Positions 127 to 24,669 of a DNA stretch of 64,000 nt are shown here, in pieces (the stretch's first letter is position 1; the number at the start of each line of letters is the position of its first letter). Below the pieces are notes generated by a model. That model saw only the letters and a program-made list of their open reading frames with translations, did no database searches and was not told the DNA's origin. The stretch comes from Cystobacter ferrugineus. GTDB taxonomy: Bacteria; Myxococcota; Myxococcia; Myxococcales; Myxococcaceae. The stretch lies in assembly GCF_001887355.1 (NCBI RefSeq), contig NZ_MPIN01000006.1, positions 496,001 to 560,000 on the forward strand, written 5' to 3'. The position numbers were made by a program, and so were the translations under genes.

Positions 127-150
127 GACGTGGAGCCGCGCGATTGTTAC
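127..150 (-). promoter_or_regulatory. ECF-type promoter element 1
   Basis: Read on the minus strand, GGTAACA is followed 14 nt later by CGTC (TT). The spacing is identical to six other copies in the first 25 kb. It points to the partial exported-protein gene starting at 43 and would give a leader of roughly 75 nt. Assignment to the sigma factor at 5883-6647 is inferred from the shared motif. Confidence 0.6.
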
Positions 151-300
151 CCACGCATTTTCTTCGCCCTTTTCCGTGCACGGCCATGGGCGCGCGGGAC
201 GCGGGAAATGGCCAGTCAGGGAGGAGCCCCAGGCGGACTACCGCGAGGGTGCCCTCTCCATCCAATGCTCGAATCCACCAGGGGTTCCCCAGGAGGCGAT

Positions 301-326
301 CACACTGCCCCTCGAGGGGCAGTGTG
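301..326 (-). terminator. hairpin after the caspase-like protease gene
   Basis: A perfect 12-bp inverted repeat with a 2-nt centre (CACACTGCCCCT / AGGGGCAGTGTG) lies four bases beyond the stop codon of the minus-strand gene ending at 330. There is no T-run, so it may be a factor-assisted terminator or an mRNA 3'-end stabiliser. Confidence 0.55.
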
Positions 327-329
327 GGC

Positions 330-2003
330 TCAGCCAACCGAGGACAAGAGCCGGGCGAGCGCCTCGCGCCCGGCCTCACGGTAGAACTGCTCCCAGCGGA
401 GCAACTCGCTGAGCGGGATGCCCTGGCTCCTGGCGATGTCCTCGGGACTGGCCTGGCGGGTGAGAAGCGCGAGGATGGCCTTCTCCGCCTCGGCGGCGCT
501 CGGCCCGGGGGTGCTCCGGGTGCGCTCCATGAACTGGGGACCCAGCAGGGCCCTCAGCGCTTCCCGCTCGTCGGACGGGCCCGGCGCGCAAGGAGCCACC
601 TGGCAAGAGGCCAGCGGCAGCCGGACCGCGGGGTCCCCCAGCAGGATGTAGTTGGCGAGATCCTGCCGCTGCATCCACAGCCAGGCTCGCGCCACCGGGT
701 CGACGGAGAACGAGCCCCCGTACGTGCGCTGCATCTCCTCCTGATTGTAGAGCATCGCCAGCTCGCTGCTCGTCTCGTTGAGGAACTGCAGCAGGGTGCT
801 CAGCGCGACGCCGGCACGGCTCCCCCGAGCGAGCGCCTTCAGCAGCTCGATGAAGCGGGAGGGCGTGCCACGGCCCTTGTCGTTGAAGCTGCAGGACCAG
901 GCGAGATCCACGTGCCCCATCACCGCCAACGGCCCGTTGGGGTTGGCCAGCGCGGCCTGGGGCAGCGCGGCGATGAACGGCCGCTCCCCCTGCTGGGGCA
1001 GCGCTTCGAGACCCCTGCGCGCGTTCGGGTCGGACGCGGGCAGTTGGCGCAGCCAGTGCGTGTAGCTGCTGCGCGTGGGCGTTCCCGCGCTGAAGCACGC
1101 GAAGCTGAACCAGACGCCCCCCGGAAGGAAGGGACGCGACGCGAGCTCCTCCGCCGGCAGGAATCGCCCGTCCGGCAGCATCAGCTCTCCCTGGTGCGCG
1201 AGCCGCTCCTCGGGCCGGGCCCAGCCCCCCGGAGGCCGTCCCCTGCCATGGCTCAGCGTGAACAGCACGCCCGGCCCGGGCTCCGCCGCGTGGGAGAGGA
1301 GCGTCTCGAGGGGCACGGCCCCCTGCCCTCCCAGCTCGAGGATGTCCGCCGCGGGGAAGTCGTCCACCTGCTGGCGCTCCCGGCAGGCCGCGACGCTCGG
1401 GGCGATCAGCACCCGGTGCCCCAGCTCCGTCGCGGAGGTGCCGTCCCGAGAAGTGTAGAAGAGCATGCGCGCCCTCGCCTCCCGCGCGGCCACTCCTTCC
1501 CACCGCAGCACCTTCTCGACATAGGCCTCGTAGCCCGCGTCCGACGAGAAGGCCAGCCGACCCACGAACGCATCCGTGGTCAAAGCCTGCTGCAGCTCCA
1601 GAGGCACCTCGTGCAGGTCCCCCAGCAGCAGCAGGTAGCGCGGCCGGTTCTTCTCGGACGTCTTCTCGTGGCGGAAGACCTCCTTCTTCCAGCCCGCGGC
1701 ATACGCGCCATCCATGACCGACGGGACGCGGTAGATCTCCACCGGTGCGCCCCCCTGGGCCTCCTGGCGCAACCGCCGCAGCGGCTCGACGAGCGCCAGG
1801 AGCCGGTCGCCACGAGCACCCTTCGGGGCCACCAGACCCCAACGCTGCGCGGGCAGCTCGTTGGGATCTCGCGTCGCGTCCCACAGGTTTTCCGGCAGCT
1901 CGACGGCCTCGGGGCGAGGAGCGCGCTGGAGTGTCTCCAGTTGGAGCCCCTGGCGGGCTGCCAGTCGCTCCTCGGAATGGGCGAGCAGCAATTCGAGTGT
2001 CAT
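330..2003 (-). CDS. gingipain/caspase-like (clan CD) cysteine protease
   Basis: A 557-residue protein resembling the C25 (gingipain-type) caspase-fold peptidases. The probable catalytic His is H252 in L-S-H-G-R-G and the Cys is C303 in F-A-C-F-S-A-G. The catalytic domain ends near Y-I-L-L-G-D-P-A-V, a phrase common in C25 proteins. No signal peptide or membrane segment is seen, so it is probably cytoplasmic. The start at 2003 has a GGAGGGGG ribosome site; in-frame sequence upstream to 2315 overlaps the preceding gene and is unlikely to be coding. It is the second gene of a two-gene unit with the duplicated-module protein, 50 bp apart, behind ECF-type promoter element 2. Family assignment rests on motifs only; the substrate is unknown. 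Confidence 0.75.
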   Translation of the reverse strand: MTLELLLAHSEERLAARQGLQLETLQRAPRPEAVELPENLWDATRDPNELPAQRWGLVAPKGARGDRLLALVEPLRRLRQEAQGGAPVEIYRVPSVMDGAYAAGWKKEVFRHEKTSEKNRPRYLLLLGDLHEVPLELQQALTTDAFVGRLAFSSDAGYEAYVEKVLRWEGVAAREARARMLFYTSRDGTSATELGHRVLIAPSVAACRERQQVDDFPAADILELGGQGAVPLETLLSHAAEPGPGVLFTLSHGRGRPPGGWARPEERLAHQGELMLPDGRFLPAEELASRPFLPGGVWFSFACFSAGTPTRSSYTHWLRQLPASDPNARRGLEALPQQGERPFIAALPQAALANPNGPLAVMGHVDLAWSCSFNDKGRGTPSRFIELLKALARGSRAGVALSTLLQFLNETSSELAMLYNQEEMQRTYGGSFSVDPVARAWLWMQRQDLANYILLGDPAVRLPLASCQVAPCAPGPSDEREALRALLGPQFMERTRSTPGPSAAEAEKAILALLTRQASPEDIARSQGIPLSELLRWEQFYREAGREALARLLSSVG

Positions 2004-2053: not shown

Positions 2054-2821
2054 TCAGTGCCGCACCGTGGCCACCTGCGGGCTCGTGCCGCTGGTGCTCA
2101 AGCCGGTGGCGGGCGGAATCGAGCGCTGCGCCAGGGCCTCGGGGTAGGCGGTGGCGACGCGCTTGCACAGGTAGTCCAGCGTCGGCCAGTCGCAGAGCTT
2201 CACTTTGACCCCGGACTGCTTCATCCGGGAGATGAAGCCATCGAGGTGCTCGGCCACCCTGCCCCGGGCCTCGAAGACGAACAGGTCCAGGCCCGGCTCC
2301 GGTTCGCTGCTGCACACCCCCATGGCCAGGAATTCCTCATGGCCGGGCAGCGGCATGATGAAGACCTTCCGCGAGGAGTGGTACTGCTCGGGCCAGGTGG
2401 GCTCCATGGAGATGTCCACGGAAGGCCCCTCCCACAACGCACCCGCGCCCCCCGCGTAGGACATGAATCCCGCGTCGGTCGAGCCCTTGGGCGACTCCGT
2501 CTCCCGGCCCTCGAAGGGGTCGTCGGAGAGGTAGCGCTTCACGAATGGCCACGGCAGCGGCACCCGCTCGTAGAGCGCCACGCTGGCGCTGGCCTGCTCC
2601 ATGCGGGAGAGGAAGTCCCCGAGGTGCTCGCGCACCCGCCCCCTGGCCACGAAGAGCACCGTGTTCGACGGGCCGGACACGCCGAAGGCCAGGAACTCTG
2701 CGGGGTTGGGCAGCGGCATGAGGAGGGTGCGCCGCGAGCGCTCCTCGGCACCAGTCCAGAAGGGAGCATCCCCGAAGAACTCAAGATTGTAGACGGCCGG
2801 CTCCTGCTCCTGATGACTCAT
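2054..2821 (-). CDS. unknown protein made of two related modules
   Basis: 255 residues, family not recognised. It contains an internal duplication. Module 1 has M-P-L-P-N-P-A-E-F-L-A-F-G-V, then A-R-G-R-V-R-E-H-L-G-D-F-L-S-R-M. Module 2 has M-P-L-P-G-H-E-E-F-L-A-M-G-V, then A-R-G-R-V-A-E-H-L-D-G-F-I-S-R-M. Each module ends in an aromatic- and Leu-rich stretch. There is no signal peptide. The start at 2821 is chosen for its AGGAG site. It is the first gene after ECF-type promoter element 2 and is followed by a caspase-like protease, so it could be that protease's partner, inhibitor or substrate; this is inference. Confidence 0.75.
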   Translation of the reverse strand: MSHQEQEPAVYNLEFFGDAPFWTGAEERSRRTLLMPLPNPAEFLAFGVSGPSNTVLFVARGRVREHLGDFLSRMEQASASVALYERVPLPWPFVKRYLSDDPFEGRETESPKGSTDAGFMSYAGGAGALWEGPSVDISMEPTWPEQYHSSRKVFIMPLPGHEEFLAMGVCSSEPEPGLDLFVFEARGRVAEHLDGFISRMKQSGVKVKLCDWPTLDYLCKRVATAYPEALAQRSIPPATGLSTSGTSPQVATVRH

Positions 2822-2873: not shown

Positions 2874-2897
2874 AACGGCACCGGCCCGGTTTGTTAC
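2874..2897 (-). promoter_or_regulatory. ECF-type promoter element 2
   Basis: On the minus strand GGTAACA, 14 nt, then CGTT (CTTG). It differs from the other copies only in the last base of CGTC. It lies about 55 nt upstream of the start codon at 2821 and downstream of the stop of the CHAT anti-sigma gene. It would let the duplicated-module protein and protease be transcribed separately from the sigma operon. Confidence 0.6.
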
Positions 2898-2916
2898 CTT
2901 CCCCGTCTTTTTTCCC

Positions 2917-5883
2917 TCACTCGAAGAGGAGCACGCTGTCGAGCCACGCCGCTCCCCGGCCAGCGCGCAGCCACTGCACGCGCTCATCGCGCAGCGCGAG
3001 GGCCGGAGGCGTCCCCGACCGGATGCGCTCGCGGACGGCGTTGAAGAAGGCCCCCGCCTCCAGGTCGGGTATCTGCACGGTCGCCGCGAGCACGCCGCGC
3101 GCCCCCGCCTCGATGAAGGAGGCGGGGAGGCTGAACGGCGTGTCGAGCGTGTAGGCCGTGTGGGCGGCGTGGCAGGCCACGAGCACCACGAAGGGAGCCC
3201 CCCGCAGGGAGGCGGAGCGGACGCGCGGCACGCTCAGCTCCTCCGACGCGCCTTCCTGCTCGGGCGCGAGCAACAGGTAGGAGGTGTTGGAGTAGCCATT
3301 GACGATGCCGTGGGCCACCAGGTCGATCTCCGTGGCGTCCTTCATGGCGGCGAGCACCCGGGAAGGAGTCGCCTCGGCGCCCGAGAGCGTGATGCGCTGC
3401 TCGCCGGGGCCGAAGACAGGGGTCCAGTCATTGAGCCGCTTGAGCGACATCCCCGGCGGCAGCTTCGCGTCCACGTTGGAGACGACGAGGTGCACCGCGG
3501 GCCCCGTGGGAGGAACGCGGGGAGGCGAAGAGCGCGTCAGGTAGCTCCAGGCCATCTCCGAGGGGAGCAGCCCCGCCCGGCCATGGAGCGGAGGCCGGGC
3601 GAGCACCTCCACCCGAGGACATGCGCGCAGGGCCGCCAGGAGCGGCTCCGGCACGAGCCCCTCGAGCCGTTGCGGCAGGGGCTCGCGCCGGGACTCGTCG
3701 AAGTGGCCGAGCAGCTCCCCGGTGGAGCCCCGCGCCAGCAGCAGCGTCCGCTCGGAGTCCGCGGTGACCGCCAGCAGGCACTGGCCTGGCAGCTCCATGC
3801 CCCGCTCGCGCGCGAACAGCTCCAGGGCTTCCGGGAAGGCACCGCGCCGGCCCGCGTCATGCAACAGGGAGGTATAGCTGTAGGCGCGCGCCCGCTGCGC
3901 TCCTGGATCCTCCGCGAGGCCCGGGGCCGTGGCCTCCTCGATGGCGCGCCAGAGCAGGGAGCGCCCCCGCGCCGCGTCGCGCTCGATGTAGAACCGCCCC
4001 AGCATGTGCGTGGCGACCGCGCGCTCGCCCGCGCTCAACGTGGGCCTGGCCGCCTCCAACGCCCGGTTCAGGTGGGCCTCGTCTCCGGGCTCGCTCTTCA
4101 GCCGGGAGATGTCCGTCAGGAAGAAGGCGCCGCTGGACGCGAGCGGCAGGCCCGTGGCCAGCGCGGCGTCGATCTCCCGCCGGGCCTCGTCCACCCGGAG
4201 CTCCTGGATGGCGATGCTCGCGAGATCCTGGTGGGCGCGCCGCCGCATGTCCGCATCCTCCCGGCCCCGCTCGAGGTACTCCCCCAGGTAGGCGCGCGTC
4301 AGCGTCGCGTCGTTCACCAGCCGGGCGACCTGCGAGAGGTTCCACAGCAGATCGTTCTCCAGCTCCCACTCGTTGTTCTCGCGAGCCTCCCTCCAGCCGC
4401 GCTCGGTGTGGGTGCGCGCGGCGTCGACCATGTCCCGCTGTCTGTAGAGGTTGGACAGCTCGCGATCGATGCAGAGGCAGCGGTACTCGAGGCCACGCGC
4501 CGGGCAGAGAGAGCGCGCGGCGAGGAGCGTCCGGGTGGCGAGCGCCCTGTTCCCGGCGGCGCTCTCGGACTTCGCGCGCTCCTGCGCCACGAGGAGCTGG
4601 AACCAGCGGTCTCCCGTGGCGGCGGCCTTGGTCTCGTAGAGCGCCAGGTGGCGGGCGGTGGCACCCATCTGCAGGAGCGCGCCCAGGAGGATGTCGTCCT
4701 CGCGCGACGCGAGGAGCGCCGCGAGGAAGCGCTCCCGCTCTTCGGGCGAGAGGCGTTTGGCGACCAGGGCCGCGTACTCCCGGGCGAGCGGAGCACGCCG
4801 CGAGAAATCCGCCTCCGCCACCCGGCGCACGTAGCGCTCGAGCACGTCGCCCCCCTCCCGCGCATCCAGCTCCCGGGCCACGGGCAGCAGCGCCAGCACC
4901 CGCTCGCGGTCCGGGGCGGCCCGGACGGCGTCGTAGAAGAAGAGGCGCGAGATGGGCACCTCGCCGAAGCCCTTGGGCAGCTCACCTGGCGCCGCCTCGA
5001 GGAGGGCCCGGCCCGCCGCCCGGGTGACCGTCCAGCGCGTGTGACGCTCGAACACGTCGCGCCGGAGGGCCTCGGCCTTCTGCGCCGCCTCCTCGGACCA
5101 GCCGGGTTCCTTCAGGGCGGCGACCTCGGTGAAGGCCCGGGCCGCCAGCAACGGCAGATCCAACTGGCGCAACGCCAGGCCCCGGTTCCACAGGGCCTGC
5201 GCATGGCGCGGGTGCTGCTCCAGCACGCCGTCCACCAGCCGGAGGGCATCCCTGGGCTCGCCCTTGAGCAGCAGCGCCACCGCGCGGTCATTGTCCAGCT
5301 CCGGCGAGTGCTCCATCGGCTCCAGGGTCTGGAGCGCCCGGTCCGCGAGGCCCGGATCGTCGCGGACCAGGTAGGCCGCCGCCAGGCCGTGGAGATCCTC
5401 CTGCTTGAGCCAGGCCATGTCCTCGAAGGGCAACTCCTCCGGGTTGTCCGAGCCTCCCATCATCCTCGCGGCCAGGGGACGGTGGCCGTCCGCGCTGGAG
5501 TAGCCGAGACGCGCCTCCAGCAGGCGCTGGGGGCGCTGCGCCAGCCACACGTCCTGCCGGGGAGTGGAGGGCAACAGCAAGCGCACCGCCACCAGCACCA
5601 GCAGGGCCGCGGCGAGCGTGGCCGGTACCAGGACGAGGGGCCTGCGCCAGAGGGTGGCGCGCGGCGCGCGTGAGAAGGCAACCGGCGCGCGCGCCCCGGC
5701 TCTCTCGGGGTGGCGGTGTGCCAGGAGCTTGAGTTGCAGCAGGTCCGTCACCCCGCGCTGGCACCGGGCGCAGCCGGGAAGGTGCTGCCGGAACGCCTCG
5801 GCGTCTTCGGGAGCGAGTTCCCCGTCCACGAACAGCTCGACGTTCTCACAGAGGCTGTCTACCCGTTCACTGTGGCGGTCCAT
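2917..5883 (-). CDS. anti-sigma zinc domain - TPR - CHAT protease fusion
   Basis: 988 residues in three parts. The N-terminus is a zinc anti-sigma (ZAS, zf-HC2) domain with C12, H34, C38 and C41 in the H-x3-C-x2-C pattern. One hydrophobic membrane segment follows at about residues 79-97. Then comes a long helical, TPR-like region (about 150-620), and the C-terminus is a CHAT caspase-like domain with candidate catalytic H858 (V-A-H-G) and C904 (V-A-C-H-A-A). Its start overlaps the sigma-factor stop by 1 nt (TGATG), so the pair is translationally coupled. By analogy with ZAS proteins it should hold the ECF sigma factor at the inner membrane; the CHAT domain may process the anti-sigma or other targets. 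That functional link is inference; the domain order is read directly. Confidence 0.85.
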   Translation of the reverse strand: MDRHSERVDSLCENVELFVDGELAPEDAEAFRQHLPGCARCQRGVTDLLQLKLLAHRHPERAGARAPVAFSRAPRATLWRRPLVLVPATLAAALLVLVAVRLLLPSTPRQDVWLAQRPQRLLEARLGYSSADGHRPLAARMMGGSDNPEELPFEDMAWLKQEDLHGLAAAYLVRDDPGLADRALQTLEPMEHSPELDNDRAVALLLKGEPRDALRLVDGVLEQHPRHAQALWNRGLALRQLDLPLLAARAFTEVAALKEPGWSEEAAQKAEALRRDVFERHTRWTVTRAAGRALLEAAPGELPKGFGEVPISRLFFYDAVRAAPDRERVLALLPVARELDAREGGDVLERYVRRVAEADFSRRAPLAREYAALVAKRLSPEERERFLAALLASREDDILLGALLQMGATARHLALYETKAAATGDRWFQLLVAQERAKSESAAGNRALATRTLLAARSLCPARGLEYRCLCIDRELSNLYRQRDMVDAARTHTERGWREARENNEWELENDLLWNLSQVARLVNDATLTRAYLGEYLERGREDADMRRRAHQDLASIAIQELRVDEARREIDAALATGLPLASSGAFFLTDISRLKSEPGDEAHLNRALEAARPTLSAGERAVATHMLGRFYIERDAARGRSLLWRAIEEATAPGLAEDPGAQRARAYSYTSLLHDAGRRGAFPEALELFARERGMELPGQCLLAVTADSERTLLLARGSTGELLGHFDESRREPLPQRLEGLVPEPLLAALRACPRVEVLARPPLHGRAGLLPSEMAWSYLTRSSPPRVPPTGPAVHLVVSNVDAKLPPGMSLKRLNDWTPVFGPGEQRITLSGAEATPSRVLAAMKDATEIDLVAHGIVNGYSNTSYLLLAPEQEGASEELSVPRVRSASLRGAPFVVLVACHAAHTAYTLDTPFSLPASFIEAGARGVLAATVQIPDLEAGAFFNAVRERIRSGTPPALALRDERVQWLRAGRGAAWLDSVLLFE

Positions 5884-6647
5884 CAGTTCACTCCGGAGTG
5901 GATGTGCCGCAGGAGGAATTCGCGCAGCCTGGCGCGGGCATCGTGCAGCCGCTTGGAGACCGTACCCACCGGGATGTCGAGGGAACGAGCGATGTCCTGG
6001 TATTTCTTCCCGGCCGCGTGCAGCTCGAAGGTGGCGCGCATCTTCGGGCTCAGCGTCTGGAGGGCCTCGGAGAACTGCTCGTCCGTGAGGGTGTCATAGA
6101 CGGGCCGGGAGTCGGAGCCAGGTGCTTCCACCACCTCGTTGCTCAGGTGGGGATCCTTCGCGCCCTGGGCCTGCACCCGCTGCCGCCGGCATTGATCGTA
6201 GAAGCGGTGGGACAGGGTGGTGACCAGCCAGGCCTCGCAGCTGCGCTCGTTGGGGAGCGCCTCCACCTGGCCAAAGGTCTGGATGAACCGCAGCAGGGTG
6301 TCCTGCACGAGGTCCTCCGCGTCGGTGGTATTCCGGCAGAGGTTTTTGGCCTGGGCGAGCAACCAGACACGATACCTCGAGGCAAACTCCCCGGCTCGCT
6401 GCTCGCTCTTCCCCTGGTCCATTGGCTGTGGTGGCCCCCTTCGTCGCCCCGGGTCCTGCTCACGGGGACGAACGGGCAGCTTTATGACACGGGCTCCTCC
6501 GGCTGGGGAGGACATTTCCGGAGCCGTCCGGCCCCAGGAAGCAGGGGCGTCGGGTTGCTGGAGCGCACCTCGAGAACGCGCCGCGTTCATCGCGGGTGCT
6601 TCGAGGGCCTCGGGTTCACATGACCGTGGAGGAGCCAGGAGCCACAT
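5883..6647 (-). CDS. ECF RNA polymerase sigma factor, master of the island
   Basis: An ECF sigma-70 factor. Region 2 runs from F-A-S-R-Y-R-V-W-L-L-A-Q-A through the D-A-E-D-L-V-Q-D-T-L-L-R core. Region 4 ends in Y-Q-D-I-A-R-S-L-D-I-P-V-G-T-V-S-K-R-L, a helix-turn-helix. The ATG at 6647 has a GAGAAG site and lies about 50 nt below a promoter element. It adds about 75 low-complexity residues before the sigma core, and a start at 6422 (M-D-Q-G-K-S) is possible. It is followed by the anti-sigma-CHAT gene (1-nt overlap) and transcribed divergently from the CHAT-STAND-WD40 gene. A copy of the shared element precedes it, which suggests autoregulation. Confidence 0.88.
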   Translation of the reverse strand: MWLLAPPRSCEPEALEAPAMNAARSRGALQQPDAPASWGRTAPEMSSPAGGARVIKLPVRPREQDPGRRRGPPQPMDQGKSEQRAGEFASRYRVWLLAQAKNLCRNTTDAEDLVQDTLLRFIQTFGQVEALPNERSCEAWLVTTLSHRFYDQCRRQRVQAQGAKDPHLSNEVVEAPGSDSRPVYDTLTDEQFSEALQTLSPKMRATFELHAAGKKYQDIARSLDIPVGTVSKRLHDARARLREFLLRHIHSGVN

Positions 6648-6705: not shown

Positions 6706-6729
6706 GACGAGGAGGGAGGGATTTGTTAC
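6706..6729 (-). promoter_or_regulatory. ECF-type promoter element 3 (sigma gene)
   Basis: Minus-strand GGTAACA, 14 nt, CGTC (TTCT). It faces away from element 4; the two -35 parts lie 27 bp apart and form an inverted repeat (TTTGTTACCCGCG ... CGCGGGTAACAAA). It drives the sigma/anti-sigma operon, implying positive autoregulation. Confidence 0.68.
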
Positions 6730-6756
6730 CCGCGCCGCCGGCGGGGGATGCCGCGG

Positions 6757-6780
6757 GTAACAAAACCGCCGCTGTGCGTC
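6757..6780 (+). promoter_or_regulatory. ECF-type promoter element 4 (CHAT-STAND-WD40)
   Basis: GGTAACA, 14 nt, CGTC (CTCTT), ending 32 nt before the ATG at 6813. The sequence from the -35 to beyond the -10 closely matches element 5 in front of the paralogous CHAT-STAND-TPR gene. Confidence 0.68.
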
Positions 6781-6812: not shown

Positions 6813-9800
6813 ATGAGCGCAGCACACCTGGAGGGCGTGAGCCCGGAAGACCGTGGACAGCAGGGCCTCGAGGCCCAGCCGTATGAGTTGAGCCTGGAGT
6901 TCTCACGTGCCCGCGACGCGGGAGACCCGTTCGCCTTCCAGTTCACGGAGCAGGAGTACCAGCTGCGCATGGAAGGAGGGGTGTTCCAGAGCGCGCCGTT
7001 TCCGTGGAACCCACGGGTGCTGGCGGACCTGAGCGAGCTGGAGAAGTCCGAGCCGGACCGGAGTGCCCTCCAGCGCCTGGGGGACGACCTGCGGACCTTC
7101 CTGGAGCGGCTGGACTGGGCACGGCACGAGACCGCCCTCGAGGAGGCACTGGCCCTCGGCCGGGAGGTCCACCTGTCGTTCCGCTCGGCCGCCGCGGAGC
7201 TGTATGCGCTCCCCTGGGAGCTGCTCACGCTGAGAGGCTCCGGGCAGACCCTGGGAGAGCTCCCGGGGTGCTCCCTGCGCTACGAGTGGCCCAGACCGAA
7301 GGAAGCCTCACGGGCCGTGCTCCCCGCCCAGGGCGGACGCCTGCTCTTCGCGTGGTCCGCGGCCGGAGGGCTCGTCCCGGCCGACGCGCATGGGAGAGCC
7401 CTCATGGAGGCCTGCGCGCGGGGAGACGTCCCGTTCGAGCCGTCCCGCGACGTCCTCGGACACGTGTCGCTCCAGGCCCTGGCGGAGGCGTTGAAGGCCG
7501 CGCACGAGCCCATCTCCGTGCTCCACATCCTCTGTCACGGGGGCCGCGTGGGTGACACGTACGGGCTGCTGTGGAACCCCGCGCGAGAGGGAGGCAAGCC
7601 CGAGTTGGTGGATGGAGCGAGGCTGCGTCAGGTGCTGGCCCCGTACGCCGGGACGTTGCGGATGGTGGTCCTGAGCGCCTGCCGGAGCGGAGGTGGGGGG
7701 GCGCTGGGGAGCCACCTGGGGAGTGTTGCCCAGGAGCTGCATCGGGTGGGCATCCCCGCGGTGGTGGCCTCGCGGCTGCCGCTGTCGGTGGCGGGCTCCA
7801 CCCGGCTCACGCAGGTGCTCTACGGGGAGCTGCTCGGCGGGCCGTGCTCGCTGGAGCGGGCGCTGGGGGAGGCCCGGCGGCAGCTCGCGCTGGAGGGACG
7901 TGGCCTGGACTGGGCCTCGCTGCAGCTCTACGCCCGCGCCGGGGAGGGTCCGGACATCCGGCCCCTGGCGATTCGTCCCTACCGCGGGCTGCTGGCGTTC
8001 GAGGCGAAGCACCGGCGCTTCTTCTTCGGGCGGGAGAAGCTCTCGCGGGAGCTGCTCGAGCGGGTGCGGGACGCGGCGGCGGGGAAGAAACCCCGCTTCC
8101 AGGTGGTGGCGGGGGCCTCGGGAGCCGGCAAGTCCTCGGTGGTGATGGCGGGGCTGGTGCCCCTGCTGTCCCCGGAGGAATGGGACGTGGTGGTGGTGCG
8201 GCCTGGCGAGCTCGCGGCGGAGGGCGGGGCCTCGGAAGTGAAGTACCCGTCGCTGCGGGGGCTGAGCAGGCGGCTGCGTGCGATGGGGGGCGGCGAGTTG
8301 CTGACCGCGGGGCACGGGGCGACCGGGTCCGAGGTGCTCGAGGAGGCGCGGAGGCTGCGCCAGGCCCGTCCCGGGCGGAGGCTGCTGCTGGTGGTGGACC
8401 AGCTCGAGGAGGTGTTCACCCAACTGGCGAGCCCCGAGGAGAGAGCCGCGCTGATGGGGGTGTTGTGGACGCTCGGCACGTCCAACGAGTGGGAATGCAT
8501 CGTTGTCAGCACCCTGCGGGTGGACCACTTCGAGCGCTGTGCGGAGGTGGCACTGGACGAGCGGACGCGGCTGGACACGGTGGTGTACGCCGAGCAGCAC
8601 CGCGTCTTCGTGGCGCACATGGAGGCACAGGAGCTCGCGGCGGCCATCGAGCGGCCGGCGCGGGAGGTCGGGCTGGAGTTGGAGGCGGGACTCGTGGAGC
8701 AACTGTGCCTGGACGTGGGCCAGGAGCCTGGAGCGCTGCCGCTGCTGGAGTACGCACTGGATCTGCTCTGGGAGCGCAGGGAGGGCCGGCGGCTGACGAA
8801 CCGGGTGTACGAGGAGCTGGGGGGAGTGACGGGGGCCCTGACGCGAACGGCGGACCGGCTGTACGAGGAGCTGTCGGAGCCCCAGCGAAGGCAAGCGAGA
8901 CGGTTGCTGGTGAAGCTGGTGGACTTCCGGGACGCGACGAGCCCCCAGACGCGCCGGCGGGTGCGGGTGGAGGAGGTGCGACCGCTCGAAGAGCAGGCGC
9001 GCAAGGCTTTCGAGGAGGTGCTGGAGAAGCTGGTGCGCGGCCGGCTGCTGGTGAAGGGCGAGGACGAGGCAGAGGGGGACAGCGGAACGTGGGTGCAGTT
9101 CGCGCACGAGGCGCTCATCCGCAGGTGGAAGGCCGTACAGACGTGGGTGAAGGAGGACTGGGAGCGGGAGCAGCAACTTCGTGAGCTCGACGCCTGGGCG
9201 AAGGCCTGGGAGGCGCAACAGGGGGGCGGAGATAGAGGGGCTTCGTATCTGCTGACGGGAGACAGGCTGGGCTACGCACGTCGCGTGAGCGCCAGGTTCC
9301 GCGGCGAGTTGTCAGCGAGGAGCATGCGTTTCATCGCGGAGTCGGACGCAGCCGAGGCGCGAAGGAAGAAGCAGTTGGGCGCCGTGGTGCTCTCCCTGGC
9401 CGTGCTCCTGCTGCTGGCGGTCGTGGCCGCGGTCATGGCGGCATGGCAGAGGCAAGAAGCCAAACGCCAACGGACCTCGGTGCTTGATGCCACGCACGTC
9501 GCTCATTCCAAACGCTTGAACGAGCAGGATCCAACCCTCGCGGCTCTCGTGCTGCGAGAGGTGATGCACCCGGAGAAGACACCGGAGTGGACTCAAACCG
9601 CCGTCGACACTTTACAGAGCCCTTTGAGCACGGCTGTCCTGAAAGGACACCAGGCTCAGATCAATGCTGTCACATTCAGCCGGGACGGCCAGTGGGTGGT
9701 GACGGCGTCCGGGGACAACACGGCGCGGGTGTGGCGTGCCGACGGGACAGGCACCCTCGTGGTGCTCCGGGGCCATGAGAAGGAGGTGTGGTCGGCGGCC

Positions 9801-16692: not shown

Positions 16693-19600
16693 TCAGGCGT
16701 CCAGGAGCGAATTCTTCATGACCTCATCGTAGCTCATCCTGAGAATGGACCGCGGCAGGAGGGCGAGGGCGGTTTTCTCGGCTTTCATCACCTCGATGAA
16801 ATGCTCGAAAGCCTCGTCATGATACGTGCGTGCGTCCTCGAGCCGCCCCTGCGCCTGAGCCAACAGTCCCAGTCTGAAGTAGCTGCTGGTCAGGGCGAGC
16901 AAGGTGACGCTCACCCTCATCGACTTCGCCGCCGTCAGTTCCCGGCTCAGCGCGAGAGCGGCCTCGTAGGGATGGCGCGCTTCCTCGAACTGGCCCTGCT
17001 CCCGCATCACGTCTCCCAGTTTGCCGTACCTGCTGATCAGGAACGTCTTCAACAGGGTGTCCGTCGGATTGGTGTCCACCATTTCCCGGCTCAGCCGCAG
17101 AGCGGTTTCGTAGTGCTCCCGTGCCAGCGCGAGCTGGCCCTGCACCTGGGCAATCAACCCCAGGCTGGACTCGCCGACAGCCAGTCCCTTCTTCAAGGTG
17201 GCATTGGTCGGGTCGGCGACCAGCAGCTCCCGGCTCATGGTGCGCAGCCTTTCATAATAGTCGCGCGCCGTCTCCAACTGGCCCTGCTCCCGCGCGAGGT
17301 TTCCCATGTTGACGTAGCTGGTGACCACGACCTCCTTCAGCCTGGCATTCGTCGGGTCGGTTTTCAGCAATTCCTGGCCCAGCACGAACGCGGCCTCCGC
17401 GTATTGGCGCCTATCATCCGGTTGGCCATGCATCCGTGAAGACGTCACCAACCGGGTATAGATTTGAGCCAGTTCCCGCTTCAGCGAGGCATTCGTCGGG
17501 TCCGCCTCCACGAGTTCCTGGAGCAGCTCGCGAGTCTTTTCGAAGTGTTGATGTGACTGCTCACCCTGCCCTCCCAGCTCCAGCGCCAGCTCCGCCAGTT
17601 GGCTGTGGCTGATGGCCAATTCCCGCTTCAAGATGGCGTTCTTTGGATCGTCCTCCACCAGCTCCTGGGTCAGCTCGAGAGCCTCTTCATAATGCTCGCG
17701 AGTCTCCTCGTACTGGCCCTGTGCACGCAGGACATTCCCGAGCCGTCCGTGGCTGTCGACCAGACTCCGCTTCAGCGAGGTATTCGTCCCGTCGTCGTCC
17801 GCGAGTTCCTCGCTGAGCCGGAGGTAGTGCTCGTAATACTCGCGCGCATCCGAGAGCTTGCCCTGCGCCTGCGCCACCGCGCCCAACCTGCCGTGACTGG
17901 CGGCCAGCTCCCGCTTCACATGGGCATTCATCGGCTCGGCTTCCGCCAGCCCCTGTAGCAACACGAGTGCCTTCTGGTGGTATTCGCGCGACTCCTCGAG
18001 CTTGCCCTCCTCCTTCATCACATCACCCAGGCTGCTGGAGTGGGAGGCCAGGTCCCGCTTCAGCGCGGTATTCATCGGATCGACGTTCACGAGCTTCTGG
18101 ATGAGAACGAGCGCCTGCTCATAATGCCCGCGAGCCGCCTCGAGGTGGCCCTGCGCCCGCCTCACCGCGCCCAGCTTGCCGTAGCAGCCGCCCAGCTCCT
18201 GCGCCAGGGAGGCATTGGCCGGGTCGGCGTCCACCAACCGCCGGGTCAGCGCGAGGGCCTCCTCGTAGTGGCCACGCGCCACCTCGAGCTGGCCCTGGGC
18301 CTCGCCGACCTCGCCCAGCTTCGAGTGGAGGACGGCGAGCTCGTGCATGTAGACGGGATCGTCCGGATTGGACTCGAGCAACTGCCCGACGAGTTCGAGC
18401 GCCTGGCCATACGCCTCGCCCGCGGCCGCCGTGTTCTCGTGCATCATGGCCACGTTGCCCCGCTCCAGATGATTCCTGACGCTCTCGAGCTGGATGTCGG
18501 GCTCGTCGGTGGCATCCAGTCGCATCAAGAGCCCCTCGACTCCCTGCAACAACTCCCTGCGCACGGCCGCCGTGCCAGCAATGGGCTCGAGCTTCTTGCT
18601 CGTCGTCGAGTGGATTCGCCTCGCCAGCGCGACCGCCTCCCGCAGGCGCATCTCCGCCATGGACCGCTGATTGGAGGCATAGAGGGCCAGGACCGCGAAC
18701 ACCACCATGCCCACCGCCAGCCCCGCGCCCACCCACCGCTGACGTCTCACCCCGCGCCGCTCCCGAGCCTCGCAGGTCTCGAGGAACTCCCTCACGGAGA
18801 CCGTCATCCGCCCCACGTGCTCGCTCCGGAGGCTGCGCGCGTACCCCAGCCGCGCTCCCGTCGCCAGGTACGAGTCCCCCTGATCCGCGTCCTTCCGGTG
18901 CGCCTGCCAGGCCTCCGCCATGGCCTGCAGCTCGCGCCACTGGAGCAGCCGCTTGCGGTTGTCCTGCAGCCACGTGCGCAACCGCTCCCACCGGCGGATG
19001 AGCGCCTCGTGCGCCACCTCCACCCAGGCCCCACCGCCACCCGTCTCGCTGCCCCGAGTCACCAGCCGCTCGGCCACCAGCTTCTCCAACACCCGCTCGA
19101 AAATGGCCCGTGCCTCCGGCTCCTCGGGCCATACCTCCTCCAGCCAGCACCTCCGCCGGGTGTCGGGCCTCGACTCGTCCCCCAGCGCCACCAGCTCAGC
19201 CAGCAGCCGCCTCACGTGCTGGCGCTCCTCCTCCCGCAGCGCGCCGTACAGCCGCTCCGCCGTCTGTGTCAGACCGCCCGCCACGCCCTCCATCTCCTCG
19301 TACGCCCGGTGCGTCAGCCTCCGCCCCTCGCGCCCGCGCCACAGCAGGTCCAGCGCATGCTCCAGCAACGGCAGCGCTCCGGGCTCCTGCCCCACGTCCG
19401 CCACCACCCTGTCCACCAGCCCCGCCTCCAGCGTCAACCCCACCGCGTGCGCCGGCTTCTCTATCGCCTCGGCCAGTTCCTCCGGCCCGAGCTGGGCCAC
19501 GAACAACCGGTGCTCCTCGGCGTACACCACCGTGTCCAGCCGCGTCTGTTCATCCAGCACCACCTCTCCGCAGCGCTCGAAGTGATCCACCCGCACCGTG

Positions 19601-21324
19601 GCCACCACCACGCATCCCAGTGCCAGCTCCTTCCCCAGCGCCCAGACCGCCCTCATCAACGCCTGGCGCTCCTCGCTCCCGAGATGCGTGAACACCTCCT
19701 CGAGCTGGTCCATCACCAGCAGCAGCTTGCGCTCCGGACGTGCCTGCCTCAGCCGTCTGGCCTCCTCCAACAGCGCCTCCTGGGAGCCCCCTTCTCCCAT
19801 CGGCGACGGCTCGGGGTTCCACACCCGGTGCAGCCGGTGTCGCAGCTCCCGCAGCGCCACGGAGTGCGCCCCCACCGCGCCCTGCCCGGCGGACATCAGC
19901 TCGCCGGGCCTCACCACCAGGGAGTCCCACTCCTCGCGCGACAGTTGCGGCAAGAGCCCCGCCATCACCACCGAGGACTTGCCCGTGCCGGAGGCTCCCG
20001 CCACCACCTGGAAGCGCGGCCTCTGCCCTCGTGCCGCCTGCGCCACCCGCTCCAGCAGCTCCGCCTCCAACCGGCCGCGGCCAAAGAAGAAGCGCCGGTC
20101 CCTGGGCCCGAAGGCCAGCAGGCCGCGGTAGGGCCGCAGCACCACCGGCCTCAGGTCCGCCTCGCCCTCTCGCCGCGCATACAGTTGCAGCGAGGCCCAG
20201 TCGAAGCCCTGCGCTTCCACCCGCAGCCGGCGCCGCACCGCCCCCAACGCCTCCTCCAGCGAACGCGACTCCACCAGCAGCTTCTCGTACAGCGTCTCGG
20301 CCAGCAGTGCCGAGCCCGCCATCGACAGCGGCAGCCTCGAGGCCACCACCATGTCGATACCCGCCCGGTGCAGCTCCTGCGCCACGCTGCCCAGGTGGCT
20401 GGCCAGCCGGCCCCCATCTCCACCGTGGCAGGCGCACAGCACCACCATGCGCAGCGTGTCCGCGTACGGCGCCAGCACCGCGCCCAGCGCCACTCCGTCC
20501 ACCAGCTCCCGGGAGCCCCCCCTGGCCTCCGGCCCGTTCCACACCAGCCCGTAGTGGCCCTCCCCCGAGGTCTCCAACGGCGCCCCGTGACACAGCAGGT
20601 GCAGCACGGACACCGGCGCCTTCGCCTCCCGGGCCGCCCTCAGCCTCTTCTCCAGGCCCTCCAGCGAGACCTTCGCCAGCACATCCCTCCGCGGGTCGAA
20701 GTCGAAGCCTCCCTCCAGGCTCGCCTTCACCAGCGCCAGCAGGTGCCTGTCCTCCGGGACTCCGCCCCCCGCCTCGGACCAGGCGAACAGCACGCGCCCG
20801 TCCCCCGCCGCTCCCAGACGGGGCCCCTCGTCCCGCTCCCGCGGCCACTCGTAACGAAGCGTGCACCCCGGCACGTCCACCAGGTGCCTCCCGCTGCCCT
20901 CGAGCGTCACCAGCTCCCAGGGCAGGGAGTACAGCTCCGCCGCCGACGAGCGCACCACCAGCCGCAGCGCCTCACCCTTCCAACGTCCCCGAACCAGCGC
21001 CTGCTCGTGGCCCCCCCAATCCAGCTCGTCCAGGAAGCGCCTCATCCGCTCTCCCAGCCGCCTCGCCAGCTCCGCGTCGGGCCGTCCCCCGGTCAGCTTC
21101 GCCAGGTCTCCTATGATCTCCCCCCAGGAGATGCTCGCGCGCTTGACCCCTCCGTCTCCGACTCGCACCAGGTAGTCCCGGTCCCCGAAGTGGAAGCCGT
21201 GCGCATCCTCGGGGCTGTCCGCCCGTGACAACTCCAGCACCAGCTCGTACGGACCCGACTCCGGTTCCTGCCCCCGGTCAACGCCTGCTCCTGGGCCCAC
21301 GGGCTCCAGGTGTGCTGCGCTCAT
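16693..21324 (-). CDS. CHAT protease - STAND NTPase - TPR protein
   Basis: 1543 residues and a paralogue of the WD40 version at 6813-11666. It shares the N-terminus (M-S-A-A-H-L-E), a CHAT domain with H246 (L-L-C-H-G-A) and C299 (L-C-A-C-H-G-G), Walker A G-A-S-G-T-G-K-S, and Walker B L-L-L-V-M-D-Q-L-E-E. A membrane segment follows (about G-A-G-L-A-V-G-M-V-V-F-A-V-L-A-L). The sensor half differs: instead of a propeller it carries a long series of roughly 45-50-residue TPR repeats (Y-E-E-A-L-x-L ... L-V-x-x-D-P-x-N-A-x-L-K-R-E-L-A). The start at 21324 has a GAGGGGA site; in-frame sequence to 21384 would run into the promoter. Two ECF-type promoter elements stand upstream. Probably a protease switch that senses a different ligand from its paralogue. 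Confidence 0.88.
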   Translation of the reverse strand: MSAAHLEPVGPGAGVDRGQEPESGPYELVLELSRADSPEDAHGFHFGDRDYLVRVGDGGVKRASISWGEIIGDLAKLTGGRPDAELARRLGERMRRFLDELDWGGHEQALVRGRWKGEALRLVVRSSAAELYSLPWELVTLEGSGRHLVDVPGCTLRYEWPRERDEGPRLGAAGDGRVLFAWSEAGGGVPEDRHLLALVKASLEGGFDFDPRRDVLAKVSLEGLEKRLRAAREAKAPVSVLHLLCHGAPLETSGEGHYGLVWNGPEARGGSRELVDGVALGAVLAPYADTLRMVVLCACHGGDGGRLASHLGSVAQELHRAGIDMVVASRLPLSMAGSALLAETLYEKLLVESRSLEEALGAVRRRLRVEAQGFDWASLQLYARREGEADLRPVVLRPYRGLLAFGPRDRRFFFGRGRLEAELLERVAQAARGQRPRFQVVAGASGTGKSSVVMAGLLPQLSREEWDSLVVRPGELMSAGQGAVGAHSVALRELRHRLHRVWNPEPSPMGEGGSQEALLEEARRLRQARPERKLLLVMDQLEEVFTHLGSEERQALMRAVWALGKELALGCVVVATVRVDHFERCGEVVLDEQTRLDTVVYAEEHRLFVAQLGPEELAEAIEKPAHAVGLTLEAGLVDRVVADVGQEPGALPLLEHALDLLWRGREGRRLTHRAYEEMEGVAGGLTQTAERLYGALREEERQHVRRLLAELVALGDESRPDTRRRCWLEEVWPEEPEARAIFERVLEKLVAERLVTRGSETGGGGAWVEVAHEALIRRWERLRTWLQDNRKRLLQWRELQAMAEAWQAHRKDADQGDSYLATGARLGYARSLRSEHVGRMTVSVREFLETCEARERRGVRRQRWVGAGLAVGMVVFAVLALYASNQRSMAEMRLREAVALARRIHSTTSKKLEPIAGTAAVRRELLQGVEGLLMRLDATDEPDIQLESVRNHLERGNVAMMHENTAAAGEAYGQALELVGQLLESNPDDPVYMHELAVLHSKLGEVGEAQGQLEVARGHYEEALALTRRLVDADPANASLAQELGGCYGKLGAVRRAQGHLEAARGHYEQALVLIQKLVNVDPMNTALKRDLASHSSSLGDVMKEEGKLEESREYHQKALVLLQGLAEAEPMNAHVKRELAASHGRLGAVAQAQGKLSDAREYYEHYLRLSEELADDDGTNTSLKRSLVDSHGRLGNVLRAQGQYEETREHYEEALELTQELVEDDPKNAILKRELAISHSQLAELALELGGQGEQSHQHFEKTRELLQELVEADPTNASLKRELAQIYTRLVTSSRMHGQPDDRRQYAEAAFVLGQELLKTDPTNARLKEVVVTSYVNMGNLAREQGQLETARDYYERLRTMSRELLVADPTNATLKKGLAVGESSLGLIAQVQGQLALAREHYETALRLSREMVDTNPTDTLLKTFLISRYGKLGDVMREQGQFEEARHPYEAALALSRELTAAKSMRVSVTLLALTSSYFRLGLLAQAQGRLEDARTYHDEAFEHFIEVMKAEKTALALLPRSILRMSYDEVMKNSLLDA

Positions 21325-21388: not shown

Positions 21389-21412
21389 GACGCGCGGCGA
21401 CGGGTTTGTTAC
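21389..21412 (-). promoter_or_regulatory. ECF-type promoter element 5 (CHAT-STAND-TPR, proximal)
   Basis: Minus-strand GGTAACA, 14 nt, CGTC (CTCTT), about 65 nt upstream of the ATG at 21324. The -10 region is the same as in element 4. Confidence 0.68.
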
Positions 21413-21443
21413 CCGCGCTCATTTCACGTGGATTTTCCGCCGG

Positions 21444-21495: not shown

Positions 21496-21519
21496 GACGC
21501 GCGCGGCCTGGTTTGTTAC
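21496..21519 (-). promoter_or_regulatory. ECF-type promoter element 6 (distal)
   Basis: Minus-strand GGTAACA, 14 nt, CGTC (TTGTTC), exactly 107 bp upstream of element 5 and in the same direction. No convincing gene lies between them, so both probably serve the CHAT-STAND-TPR gene. Confidence 0.6.
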
Positions 21520-21687
21520 CCGCGCCGCTCGCACAACTCGGTCGGCCCCTGTCCACTGCCCTCCTCGGCCCATGCGCTCTCGTCCTCGCCTTCAACAGGC
21601 CTTCCCTCCTCATGCTTCGAAGGCTTGGCCGGCGGCCGGGTCTCGGGAATAGTCGCGGCTTCGACGAAGCTCCTGGGGAGGAGAACC

Positions 21688-22524: not shown

Positions 22525-22545
22525 TCGGGAACAGCGTTTGAGACG

Positions 22546-22585: not shown

Positions 22586-22640
22586 GGGGCGGGCAGGACT
22601 TCCGATGGGTTGGTTCCCGCGGCCGCCCATACAAATTGCA

Positions 22641-24560
22641 TCAGAGGCTGCTGCCAGAATAGACCGTGGAGAACTGGCCCGAACCGTTCGACAGCGCGAC
22701 GCCGACCCGACCGTCCCGGTAGATGAAGAGCTCGTCGTTCCCGTCACTGTTGTAGTCGAGCGCAAGCGCCGCGTCCTGGTGCTGGAAGGAGCCGAAGCCA
22801 GCCATCCCCAGGCCCCCGTAGACGGCGGAGAAGGAGCCATCGCCGTTGCTGCGCAGTACGTAGGCGGCACTGCCCCCCAGGCGGTAGAGGAAGAGGTCCT
22901 CCCGCCGGTCGTTGTTGAAATCGAACACCAGGGCCTGATCCCGGATGTCCCCAAGGTCATAGCCGCCGATGCCCAATCCTCCATACACGGTGGTGAAAGA
23001 GCCATCGCCGTTGCTGCGCAGCACGTAGGCGAAGCCGGCTCCCGGACGGTGGAGGAAGAGGTCGTCGTCGCCATCCCCGTCGTAGTCGAGCGCCAGGGCC
23101 TTGTCGTTGGGATCCGTCATGTCGTAGCCACCGATGCCTCCACCCCCGTAGACGTGGGAGAAGGAACCATCGCCGTTGCTGCGCAGCACGTAGGCGGCAC
23201 CGCCACCCGGGCGGTAGAGAAAGAGGTCGTCGCGCCCGTCGTTGTTGAAATCGAGCACCAGGGCCTGGTCCCGGGTGTCCCCAAGGTCATAGCCGCCGAT
23301 GCCCAATCCTCCATACACGGTGGTGAAAGAGCCGTCGCCGTTGCTGCGCAGCACGTAGGCGAAGCCGGCTCCCGGACGGTGGAGGAAGAGGTCGTCGTCA
23401 CCATCCCCGTCGTAGTCGAGCGCCAGGGCCTTGTCGTTGGGATCCGTCATGTCGTAACCGCCGATGCCTCCGCCTCCATAGACGGCGGTAAAGGAGCCAT
23501 CGCCGTTGCTACGCAGCACGAAGGCGGCGCCTTTGCCTGGACGATAGAAGAAGAGGTCATCCCGCCGGTCATTGTTGAAATCGAACACCACGGCACGATC
23601 GGCTGGATCCCAGAAGTCATAGCCGGCGTACAGGATGCTCGACCGGGTCCACGAGTTGATTCCGTTCGACCACGACACCCAGGCCTGGTTGTCGCCGGGC
23701 TTGTAGGAGAACAAATCCTGACGCCCATCGCCGTTGAAGTCGCCGACCACGGCCTGCAGACCCGCCCCGTACACCGACTGGGCCCCCGACTTGTCCCGCG
23801 GGGTCAGGACCAGGTCCCCGCTGTTCCCACCATTGCAGTGCGGGTAGTGCATGACCGACGCCGAGTCATAACTGGTGAGCTCCCGCCAATTGCCGTCCTC
23901 GTAGCAGGTCCCGGCCTCGGGCCGCGTGTGCTCGTGCCGGAATCCAAGCGTATGGCCGAGCTCGTGACGCAGGATTCCGGTCAGGGTCCAGGTGAGGCTC
24001 CCGAAGGCACTCGAGTGGATCAGCAGGTTCCGCGAGGAGCGCGCGTAATCCGGGAAGAAGGCACGCGCGGAATACGTAGCGCTCGAAGGGGCGGGCCTGA
24101 CGTCGAACACGACATTGGCGTTCGAGGCCGTGCAGTTCGAATCCTGACTGGAGTTGTGCATGAAGGCCACGTGCGCGGCGTCTTCCCAGTCCTTGCTGGC
24201 CTGGTTCATGGCCTGCACGACGCGATCGTAGTTGCTTCCGAAGCTGGTACTGACGCAGTAGGAGATCCGCAACTTCTGGGTGCTGCTCCAGACAGTGTCC
24301 GCCCCACCGGATTGATTGACGCTCAGCCCGCCTCCCCGCACATACCGGATGTAGTGCTCTTGCAGTTGCTCCTCATTGATGAGCGGTACGTCTCCGTCCA
24401 CGATGAAGGTGCCGCTCTCCGGCTCCTGATACACGCGGGACTTGAACTCGCTGAACGTCATCGCCGTCCCGGGTTCGTCGGCGGGAAGATCTTCAGGCGC
24501 TTCCGGAGCACCGCAACCGGCAAGGCACAAGAAGCCCATGGTCAGGAGTCTCGTCCGCAT
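22641..24560 (-). CDS. secreted metalloprotease lipoprotein with FG-GAP repeats
   Basis: 639 residues. Lipoprotein signal (L-C-L-A-G-C-G), then a metzincin-type zinc protease with H199-E200-x2-H203-x5-H209 (H-E-L-G-H-T-L-G-F-R-H-E-H) and a Met-turn (S-V-M-H-Y-P). The C-terminal 350 residues are FG-GAP/VCBS-like repeats with Ca-binding D-x-D/N-x-D-G loops (D-Y-D-G-D-G-D-D-D-L-F, D-F-N-N-D-G-R-D-D-L-F), which form an integrin-like propeller. The repeats include near-identical DNA copies about 330 bp apart (around 22950 and 23280). Probably an outer-membrane or secreted protease that digests extracellular protein. An ECF-type promoter element about 85 nt upstream links it to the sigma island. 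Confidence 0.85.
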   Translation of the reverse strand: MRTRLLTMGFLCLAGCGAPEAPEDLPADEPGTAMTFSEFKSRVYQEPESGTFIVDGDVPLINEEQLQEHYIRYVRGGGLSVNQSGGADTVWSSTQKLRISYCVSTSFGSNYDRVVQAMNQASKDWEDAAHVAFMHNSSQDSNCTASNANVVFDVRPAPSSATYSARAFFPDYARSSRNLLIHSSAFGSLTWTLTGILRHELGHTLGFRHEHTRPEAGTCYEDGNWRELTSYDSASVMHYPHCNGGNSGDLVLTPRDKSGAQSVYGAGLQAVVGDFNGDGRQDLFSYKPGDNQAWVSWSNGINSWTRSSILYAGYDFWDPADRAVVFDFNNDRRDDLFFYRPGKGAAFVLRSNGDGSFTAVYGGGGIGGYDMTDPNDKALALDYDGDGDDDLFLHRPGAGFAYVLRSNGDGSFTTVYGGLGIGGYDLGDTRDQALVLDFNNDGRDDLFLYRPGGGAAYVLRSNGDGSFSHVYGGGGIGGYDMTDPNDKALALDYDGDGDDDLFLHRPGAGFAYVLRSNGDGSFTTVYGGLGIGGYDLGDIRDQALVFDFNNDRREDLFLYRLGGSAAYVLRSNGDGSFSAVYGGLGMAGFGSFQHQDAALALDYNSDGNDELFIYRDGRVGVALSNGSGQFSTVYSGSSL

Positions 24561-24645
24561 TTTCTTTTTCCTCCAGGATGTGCGTAGGCAGAACGCTCAC
24601 GCGTGCATCGCTCGGGGTTGGCCCCCTCAGCGGTCACCGGGAAAA

Positions 24646-24669
24646 GACGCGCACCGGTTGGACTGTTAC
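24646..24669 (-). promoter_or_regulatory. ECF-type promoter element 7 (metalloprotease)
   Basis: Minus-strand GGTAACA, 14 nt, CGTC (TTTTCC), placed about 85 nt upstream of the ATG at 24560. It sits next to the edge of a transposase remnant. Confidence 0.62.

Follow-up and report, generated by a model that had tools for sequence, protein, structure and literature searches.

The left part of a 64-kb stretch of the Cystobacter ferrugineus genome (RefSeq assembly GCF_001887355.1, contig NZ_MPIN01000006.1, positions 496,001 to 560,000; hereafter the window) probably carries a caspase-like island of the DdvS/DdvA type that derives from a cyclic oligonucleotide-based antiphage signalling system (CBASS). 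In this island, transmembrane receptors similar to the nucleotide-binding leucine-rich repeat receptors (NLRs) of animal and plant immunity would replace cyclic-nucleotide signalling. Seven copies of a two-block motif would be the promoters of a private extracytoplasmic function (ECF) sigma factor and allow feedback. A comparison of loci shows a shared core of genes for a predicted sigma factor, an anti-sigma factor, a two-module protein, a C25-like protease and a CHAT-bearing sensor. Coordinates refer to the window, strands are given as + or -, and other loci and genomes carry L and G numbers.

The motif GGTAACA-N14-CGT has seven exact copies in the window. Dinucleotide-shuffled windows contain 0.05 copies on average and one at most, and none of 100 reaches seven. 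The 3' block reads CGTC in six copies and CGTT in one, as an earlier sequence-only reading of this DNA had counted. That reading had also proposed a genome scan. In the entire genome (12.05 Mb), exact matches again number seven, all of them inside 24.5 kb at the left of the window; the reversed pattern used as control yields six. With a longer pattern and up to two mismatches, 30 matches are found: The seven sites of the window have zero or one mismatch, one match elsewhere has one, and 22 have two. The latter correspond to background, since the reversed control yields 27 in all. A chance origin of the motif was dropped because of the shuffles, the genome-wide confinement and the reversed controls. 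We call the two blocks -35 and -10 by analogy with the ECF consensus.

Every copy precedes a gene, as had been claimed, and the seven copies correspond to six transcription units. On the - strand, exact matches are located before the gene of an exported protein (127..151), before the gene pair for the two-module protein and the C25-like protease (2874..2898) and before the sigma factor gene itself (6706..6730), where the site suggests autoregulation; the last two are also backed by the locus survey described below. A divergent copy (6756..6780, +) precedes the gene of a CHAT-STAND-WD40 protein. Two tandem copies (21389..21413 and 21496..21520, both -) precede the gene of a CHAT-STAND-TPR protein, and the weakest of the seven (24646..24670, -; 16.5 bits) that of a metalloprotease. 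The sequence-only reading had placed these sites correctly to one base, with span ends off by one. It had called GGTAACA a 6-mer, which is a 7-mer, and the target genes scattered, which in fact form one cluster. It had overlooked the anti-sigma gene, the kinship with DdvS/DdvA and the replacement of the sensor.

The ECF sigma factor (5883..6590, -; sigma2 and sigma4 by Pfam) has an uncertain start codon. The stop of its gene overlaps the start of the gene for a DdvA-like transmembrane anti-sigma factor (2917..5883, -), which comprises a CHCC zinc domain, one transmembrane helix, TPR repeats and a CHAT domain (zf-HC2 and CHAT by Pfam). This protein is homologous over its full length to PDB 8ROT_B (E 4e-179), an entry entitled 'Cryo-EM structure of the transmembrane anti-sigma factor DdvA' from Myxococcus xanthus. 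Its zinc ligands C12, H34, C38 and C41 are conserved without exception in the 20 loci compared (20 of 20). The same holds for the His and Cys of each of the three protease families, i.e. the CHAT domain of the anti-sigma factor, the CHAT-STAND-WD40 protein (H242 and C290) and the C25-like protease (H252 and C303). Of 30 loci with an anti-sigma homologue, 28 have an ECF sigma gene immediately upstream; in L028 and L029, the match reaches the contig end. Named genomes were also scanned for TPR-CHAT proteins, and 79 loci were kept, several of them on truncated contigs and all with Myxococcota titles except one labelled Comamonas. A full CHCC pattern was accompanied by a sigma gene directly upstream in 35 of 36 cases. 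Among the 43 loci without it, 37 lacked an upstream sigma gene and six had one; by eye, the N-termini of these six proteins resemble the zinc domain minus its first cysteine. This means, the TPR-CHAT module occurs both with and without a sigma-binding head.

Some observations on this protein family stand apart. TPR-CHAT homologues without zinc domain or sigma factor, among others in L124, L137, L141, L143, L144, L145 and L150, have an N-terminal segment resembling a signal anchor. Four further cysteines of the anti-sigma factor (C460, C469, C702 and C755) are invariant across 34 aligned homologues and might form disulfides in an extracytoplasmic domain. The L168 contig, labelled Comamonas sp. 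KCTC 72670, bears a Myxococcus-like TPR-CHAT gene and is possibly mislabelled or contaminated.

The motif recurs in relatives. Upstream of M. xanthus ddvS, CGTAACATTCCAGATGACCTGCGTT contains both blocks at identical spacing, and the neighbouring synthase gene is preceded by a site of 20.5 bits. A matrix derived only from the seven sites of the window finds a site of at least 12 bits upstream of 19 of 28 homologous sigma genes. For the survey, a second matrix was seeded with 17 sigma promoters; at its cut-off of 12 bits, two of 368,697 shuffled positions score (one strand). It was applied to 24 non-redundant sigma-linked loci of 13.7-64 kb and 15 sigma-free loci, all with a C25-like gene. Sites precede the sigma gene in 19 of the 24 sigma-linked loci, the two-module gene in 15 of 19 and the CHAT-sensor gene in at least 10 of 22. 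No site was found before the anti-sigma gene or the C25-like gene (0/24 each), which is expected for second genes of operons. In sigma-free loci, none of 15 C25-like genes and none of eight CHAT-sensor genes has a site, two of the eight being unscorable as their start lies outside the stretch. Shuffled upstream windows had a site in 9 of 2050 cases. The 17 seeds are sigma promoters mostly drawn from the same loci, which makes the counts for sigma genes circular in part; no two-module or sensor promoter served as a seed.

Clustering of the open reading frames behind the motif matches in 21 loci yields the same recurrent families: sigma factor (15), two-module protein (14) and CHAT sensor (16, some of these matches being located within the gene or sharing one gene). 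Across motif-bearing loci, identity of the anti-sigma factors goes down to about 41%. In three relatives, exact matches are concentrated at the orthologous locus, with 7 of 9 in G048, 5 of 7 in G045 and 3 of 5 in G074. Among 145 genomes of the order, 87 contain at least one exact match, most counts being low and background-like. The 24 exclude duplicate views (L070, L091, L092, L161, L170, L223), L094, which is truncated, and loci in which no C25-like gene was matched (for example L078, L084, L085, L086, L088 and most of L091-L169); they therefore represent those members of a broader DdvA-like family that carry a C25-like gene. As scoring was limited to about five candidates per genome at most, the paralogue counts are minimum values. 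Taken together, the comparison gives good support to what the sequence-only reading had proposed, an autoregulated ECF regulon with CHAT-STAND and gingipain-fold proteases. Apart from this, six sigma-free loci (L208, L212, L217-L220) contain pairs of a CHAT-nSTAND1 and a C25-like protein without a 12-bit site and might represent a stand-alone two-protease system.

The C25-like protease (330..2003, -; Pfam PF01364) has the gingipain/caspase fold of clan CD. It has no match among PDB sequences. Its AlphaFold model (mean predicted local distance difference test score, pLDDT, 66) resembles the structures of Kgp (Z 23.6) and RgpB (Z 23.4); weaker structural matches are Csx29 (Z 15), the SAVED-CHAT filament (Z 11.7) and DdvA (Z 11.4). 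No hydropathy peak above 1.7 occurs in any of the 20 C25-like proteins compared, and thus no export signal or membrane segment is apparent by this simple test. An orthology with the published prokaryotic caspase of Haliangium was considered and is not claimed, because the 41 of 195 phylum genomes in which the C25-like family occurs (E <= 1e-15) all belong to the same taxonomic family as the window. C25-like proteins from STAND-type loci (500-564 amino acids) have an additional C-terminal stretch of about 38-102 residues, which is partly helical in the model. Many sigma-free C25-like proteins (up to 562 amino acids) also have such a stretch, and those of the SAVED type are shorter (464-487 amino acids). 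Between the anti-sigma and C25-like genes, the two-module protein (2054..2821, -) is encoded, and 19 of the 24 sigma-linked loci contain a homologue of it. The protein matches no Pfam, NCBIfam or PADLOC family, and its AlphaFold model (mean pLDDT 67) has no Foldseek match at 0.001 or better. PADLOC also returned nothing for the anti-sigma factor, C25-like protein and metalloprotease of the window, and six homologues (four of the C25-like protein, two of the two-module protein) gave no match either.

Two receptor-proteases complete the core of the window. One has the order CHAT, nSTAND1, transmembrane segment, WD40 (6813..11666, +), the other CHAT, nSTAND1, transmembrane segment, TPR (16693..21324, -), as judged by Pfam and hydropathy. 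In both, a single hydrophobic segment (residues 858 and 865) separates nSTAND from the repeats. The CHAT-STAND N-terminus has one match, which is weak and uninformative. Against the PADLOC SAVED-CHAT profile PDLC02016, only the CHAT half matches (E 2e-40 and 3e-31).

In relatives, a SAVED-CHAT gene takes the place of CHAT-STAND; the G074 protein matches PADLOC with E 6e-204, and Pfam finds SAVED and CHAT in such proteins. The sigma-linked loci can be sorted by this sensor. Thirteen of the 24 match SAVED; all 13 encode a cyclic-nucleotide synthase and none matches nSTAND1. Eight, including the window, match nSTAND1, and none of these has SAVED or a synthase within the stretch searched. At E <= 1e-4, neither was found in the 64 kb of the window or in the adjoining 12 kb on the left. 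The remaining three have none of the three features; L216 and L221 have no CHAT sensor in view, and L102 encodes a short CHAT protein. Pfam backs SAVED in 10 of 13 and the synthase in 10 of 13 loci; the other three match L080 proteins at 67-90% or, in the case of one SAVED protein, that of L072 at 52%. For nSTAND1, Pfam backs three of eight (window, L073, L224), and the other five match the window's proteins at 60-83%. Among the 15 sigma-free loci, SAVED and synthase are absent, and nSTAND1 has nine matches (three weak).

A second island of the window's own genome, L089 (G000:C25:24001-44000), is of the SAVED type and comprises SAVED-CHAT, synthase, ECF sigma factor, DdvA-like anti-sigma factor and C25-like protease. 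The start of one of its open reading frames reads like Cas10/Cmr2. The M. xanthus ddvS/ddvA locus is of the SAVED type, too. G104 and G114 likewise contain one island of each type apiece. Next to the SAVED-CHAT island of L079, an E2/ThiF (E1-like) protein is encoded (2486-4740, -, in L079), an arrangement akin to that of ubiquitin-like CBASS operons.

In the tree of C25-like proteins, the eight STAND loci form one clade (Shimodaira-Hasegawa-like approximate likelihood ratio test, SH-aLRT, 97) among sigma-linked SAVED loci, and in a further tree seven of them group with 96/96. In the CHAT tree, sigma-linked CHAT-STAND proteins join the sigma-free ones (support 91-96) and not most SAVED-CHAT proteins. 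The simplest history would be that SAVED-CHAT and synthase genes were replaced by CHAT-STAND genes and that the core of sigma factor, anti-sigma factor, two-module protein and C25-like protease was kept. As the trees are unrooted, the direction of this replacement is an inference. More tentatively, this could be the exchange of the input of an entire caspase-like cascade: Transmembrane NLR-like receptors might have taken over from synthase and SAVED by gene replacement, with the sigma/anti-sigma feedback and the C25-like protease retained.

Several results weigh against this reading of the island. Nine of the 28 homologous sigma genes remain below 12 bits with the window-only matrix; L026, L034 and L036-L038 all belong to these nine, and nothing similar was found in them. 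In the survey, five of 24 sigma genes (L077, L083, L087, L089, L102) lack a site of at least 12 bits. The promoters of L077 and L087 have a spacer one base shorter, L083 has GGTAACA with an altered -10 block, and L089 and L102 have nothing clear; this means that the second island of the window's own genome lacks the motif. Twelve of 22 sensor genes have no site in the stretch searched, the number of sites being a lower bound as that of L072 sits closer to the gene. G080 has nine scattered exact matches, none of them before its sigma gene (L086). The sigma-linked loci L216 and L221 show no CHAT sensor within 20 kb. As for the sensor exchange, the anti-sigma tree unites the STAND loci only weakly (64/66; six of seven at 100/99). 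Furthermore, SAVED-type islands exist elsewhere in G000 (L089), G104 (L087) and G114 (L077), so these genomes do contain a synthase, which might act in trans.

It is very improbable, although no search for repeats was made, that the motif belongs to a mobile repeat or serves a conventional transcription factor as its operator. Promoter and operator are indistinguishable by sequence alone, but the two blocks have ECF-like spacing, the CGTC/CGTT block agrees with the -10 consensus of ECF promoters, and the copies are oriented towards their genes. In addition, a copy precedes the sigma gene in most loci, a match is present at ddvS, and the -35 block drifts between relatives (GGTAAC, GGTAAT, GGGAAC, CGTAAG). 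A narrower regulon is quite unlikely, too. In that case, only the sites before the sigma, two-module and CHAT-STAND genes would be used, and those before the metalloprotease and exported-protein genes would be due to chance or relics. The site at 24646 fits such a restriction. It is the weakest, and its gene, which encodes an astacin/M57-like metalloprotease with FG-GAP repeats (22641..24560, -; Pfam), has no homologue in the other loci compared, save one 26% local match in L221; we regard it as a lineage-specific candidate target. With seven copies facing a chance expectation of 0.05 per window, this explanation loses weight, and the exported protein speaks against it. The start of its gene, with a signal-peptide-like N-terminus by eye, lies at 1..43 (-) and the remainder left of the window (L008:11111-12043; 310 amino acids in total), and it belongs to no NCBIfam or Pfam family. 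Orthologues with 71% identity in G048 (L088) and G045 (L173) are preceded by sites of 25.2 and 26.9 bits, although they are located about 5.6 Mb from the sigma locus or on another contig. Thus, this predicted target is conserved in trans, in line with the earlier claim. The claim that the regulon comprises secreted proteases fared less well: The gingipain-like protein lacks a signal or membrane segment by hydropathy, and the metalloprotease is the target with the weakest site and almost no counterpart in the other loci compared.

The regulon might also be real and serve predation, development or envelope stress, with targets acting outside the cell or in fruiting. We consider this unlikely, yet some features point in that direction. 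Exported or lipoprotein-like targets occur: the exported protein of the window, the astacin-FG-GAP protein and, in L071, a C-type lectin lipoprotein (Lectin_C). A single hydrophobic segment precedes the TPR-CHAT part of the anti-sigma factor and the WD40/TPR parts of the receptors, so that the input may be extracytoplasmic. However, the secreted targets are mostly confined to one or two lineages, and the shared core is also found in SAVED-CHAT/synthase islands and in the DdvS/DdvA antiphage island (PMC12288465).

Under the favoured reading of a DdvS/DdvA-type island with exchanged sensors, we infer the following cascade. The zinc domain of the anti-sigma factor would hold the sigma factor at the membrane. 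The WD40- and TPR-nSTAND receptors would read a danger signal, and their assembly would switch on their CHAT proteases, which in turn may activate the C25-like protease. One protease would trigger loss of the anti-sigma factor; candidates are its own CHAT domain, a CHAT-STAND receptor and the C25-like enzyme. By analogy with DdvS/DdvA and with Craspase (PMC10028731), anti-sigma proteolysis should free the sigma factor. The released sigma factor would raise expression of receptors, proteases and itself. Because receptors, C25-like operon and sigma gene all bear the motif, sigma release would amount to positive feedback in a defence or cell-death switch. Such a role is suggested by the kinship to SAVED-CHAT/CBASS islands, and the secreted additional targets leave room for others.

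If this holds true, the island would combine receptor, initiator protease and executioner protease with transcriptional self-amplification in an inflammasome-like logic, and private promoter variants would prevent parallel islands of one genome from cross-firing. A list of odd genes thereby becomes a testable circuit, in which, within a multicellular bacterium, NLR-like STAND receptors, caspase-fold proteases and a dedicated sigma factor are linked. The motif predicts regulon members across related genera. In addition, one protease/sigma core combined with two unrelated kinds of sensor is a natural experiment, and the genome of the window carries both variants (window and L089).

The surroundings of the core contain further genes. 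Between the two CHAT-STAND genes, two adjoining RCC1-like repeat genes (11874-16467, -) lack an exact motif upstream; the first contains 13 RCC1 stretches, and the second is alike by eye. A dienelactone hydrolase family gene (21688-22524, +), divergent to the tandem motif copies, is probably unrelated. On the right, the island is flanked by genes of branched-chain amino-acid type (25409-35288), encoding LeuA, an aconitase-family protein and IlvD by Pfam and an acetolactate-synthase-like protein by eye. The long open reading frames 38555-40213, 45384-47465 and 48022-49656 have no Pfam match at 1e-5.

Among known systems, DdvS/DdvA (PDB 8ROT, 8RW5, 8RLZ) is the closest. In the structure paper, DdvA is reportedly described as a periplasmic TPR-CHAT dimer for which autoproteolysis is proposed. 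Both loci have an ECF sigma gene that overlaps the gene of a CHCC anti-sigma factor with a single transmembrane helix followed by TPR-CHAT, the same promoter architecture before the sigma gene, an adjoining C25-like gene and a CHAT-bearing sensor. They differ in that SAVED-CHAT and two synthases are encoded in the 20 kb read from the M. xanthus island, whereas the window has CHAT-nSTAND receptors; its anti-sigma factor is about 41% identical, and L089 is the closer DdvA-type island of this genome. PddvS needs DdvS, which is active once DdvA is inactivated (PMC4374960), and DdvS governs an antiphage island that is reported to comprise two CBASS together with a III-B CRISPR system (PMC12288465). 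No CBASS content of this kind was found in the 64 kb and the 12 kb to the left: The locus has neither a cGAS/DncV-like nucleotidyltransferase (CD-NTase) nor a SAVED-CHAT effector within these stretches. With SAVED-CHAT (PDLC02016; PDB 8TL0, 'Structure of activated SAVED-CHAT filament'), the window proteins share a homologous CHAT half, the invariant His/Cys and the same place in the regulon, but they have nSTAND1, a transmembrane segment and WD40 or TPR instead of SAVED, and no synthase was found nearby.

In the literature searched, neither a sigma-controlled CHAT-nSTAND island nor the private promoter code and two-module partner of such a STAND-for-SAVED variant was found, the full DdvS/DdvA papers and the ECF classification being outside reach, so that absence is unproven. 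In the Craspase system (Csx29-Csx30-CASP-sigma, type III-E CRISPR), the inhibitor of an ECF sigma factor is also under the control of a TPR-CHAT protease, and the locus contains sigma motifs; protease and inhibitor are separate and RNA-guided there (PMC10028731), whereas a single membrane protein unites anti-sigma domain and TPR-CHAT here. For the ECF54 group, CHAT proteins are likewise reported near an ECF sigma factor (PMC8999054), a likeness of gene neighbourhood. Gingipains (peptidase family C25) share with the C25-like protease the clan CD fold (Z about 23) and the His-Cys dyad. They differ from it by a structural identity of only 12-14%, by its lack of a hydrophobic export segment and by its being encoded with a defence-type sigma regulon. 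The sigma/anti-sigma pair is a further case of the known DdvS/DdvA type, and its CHAT proteases are of already-known kinds.

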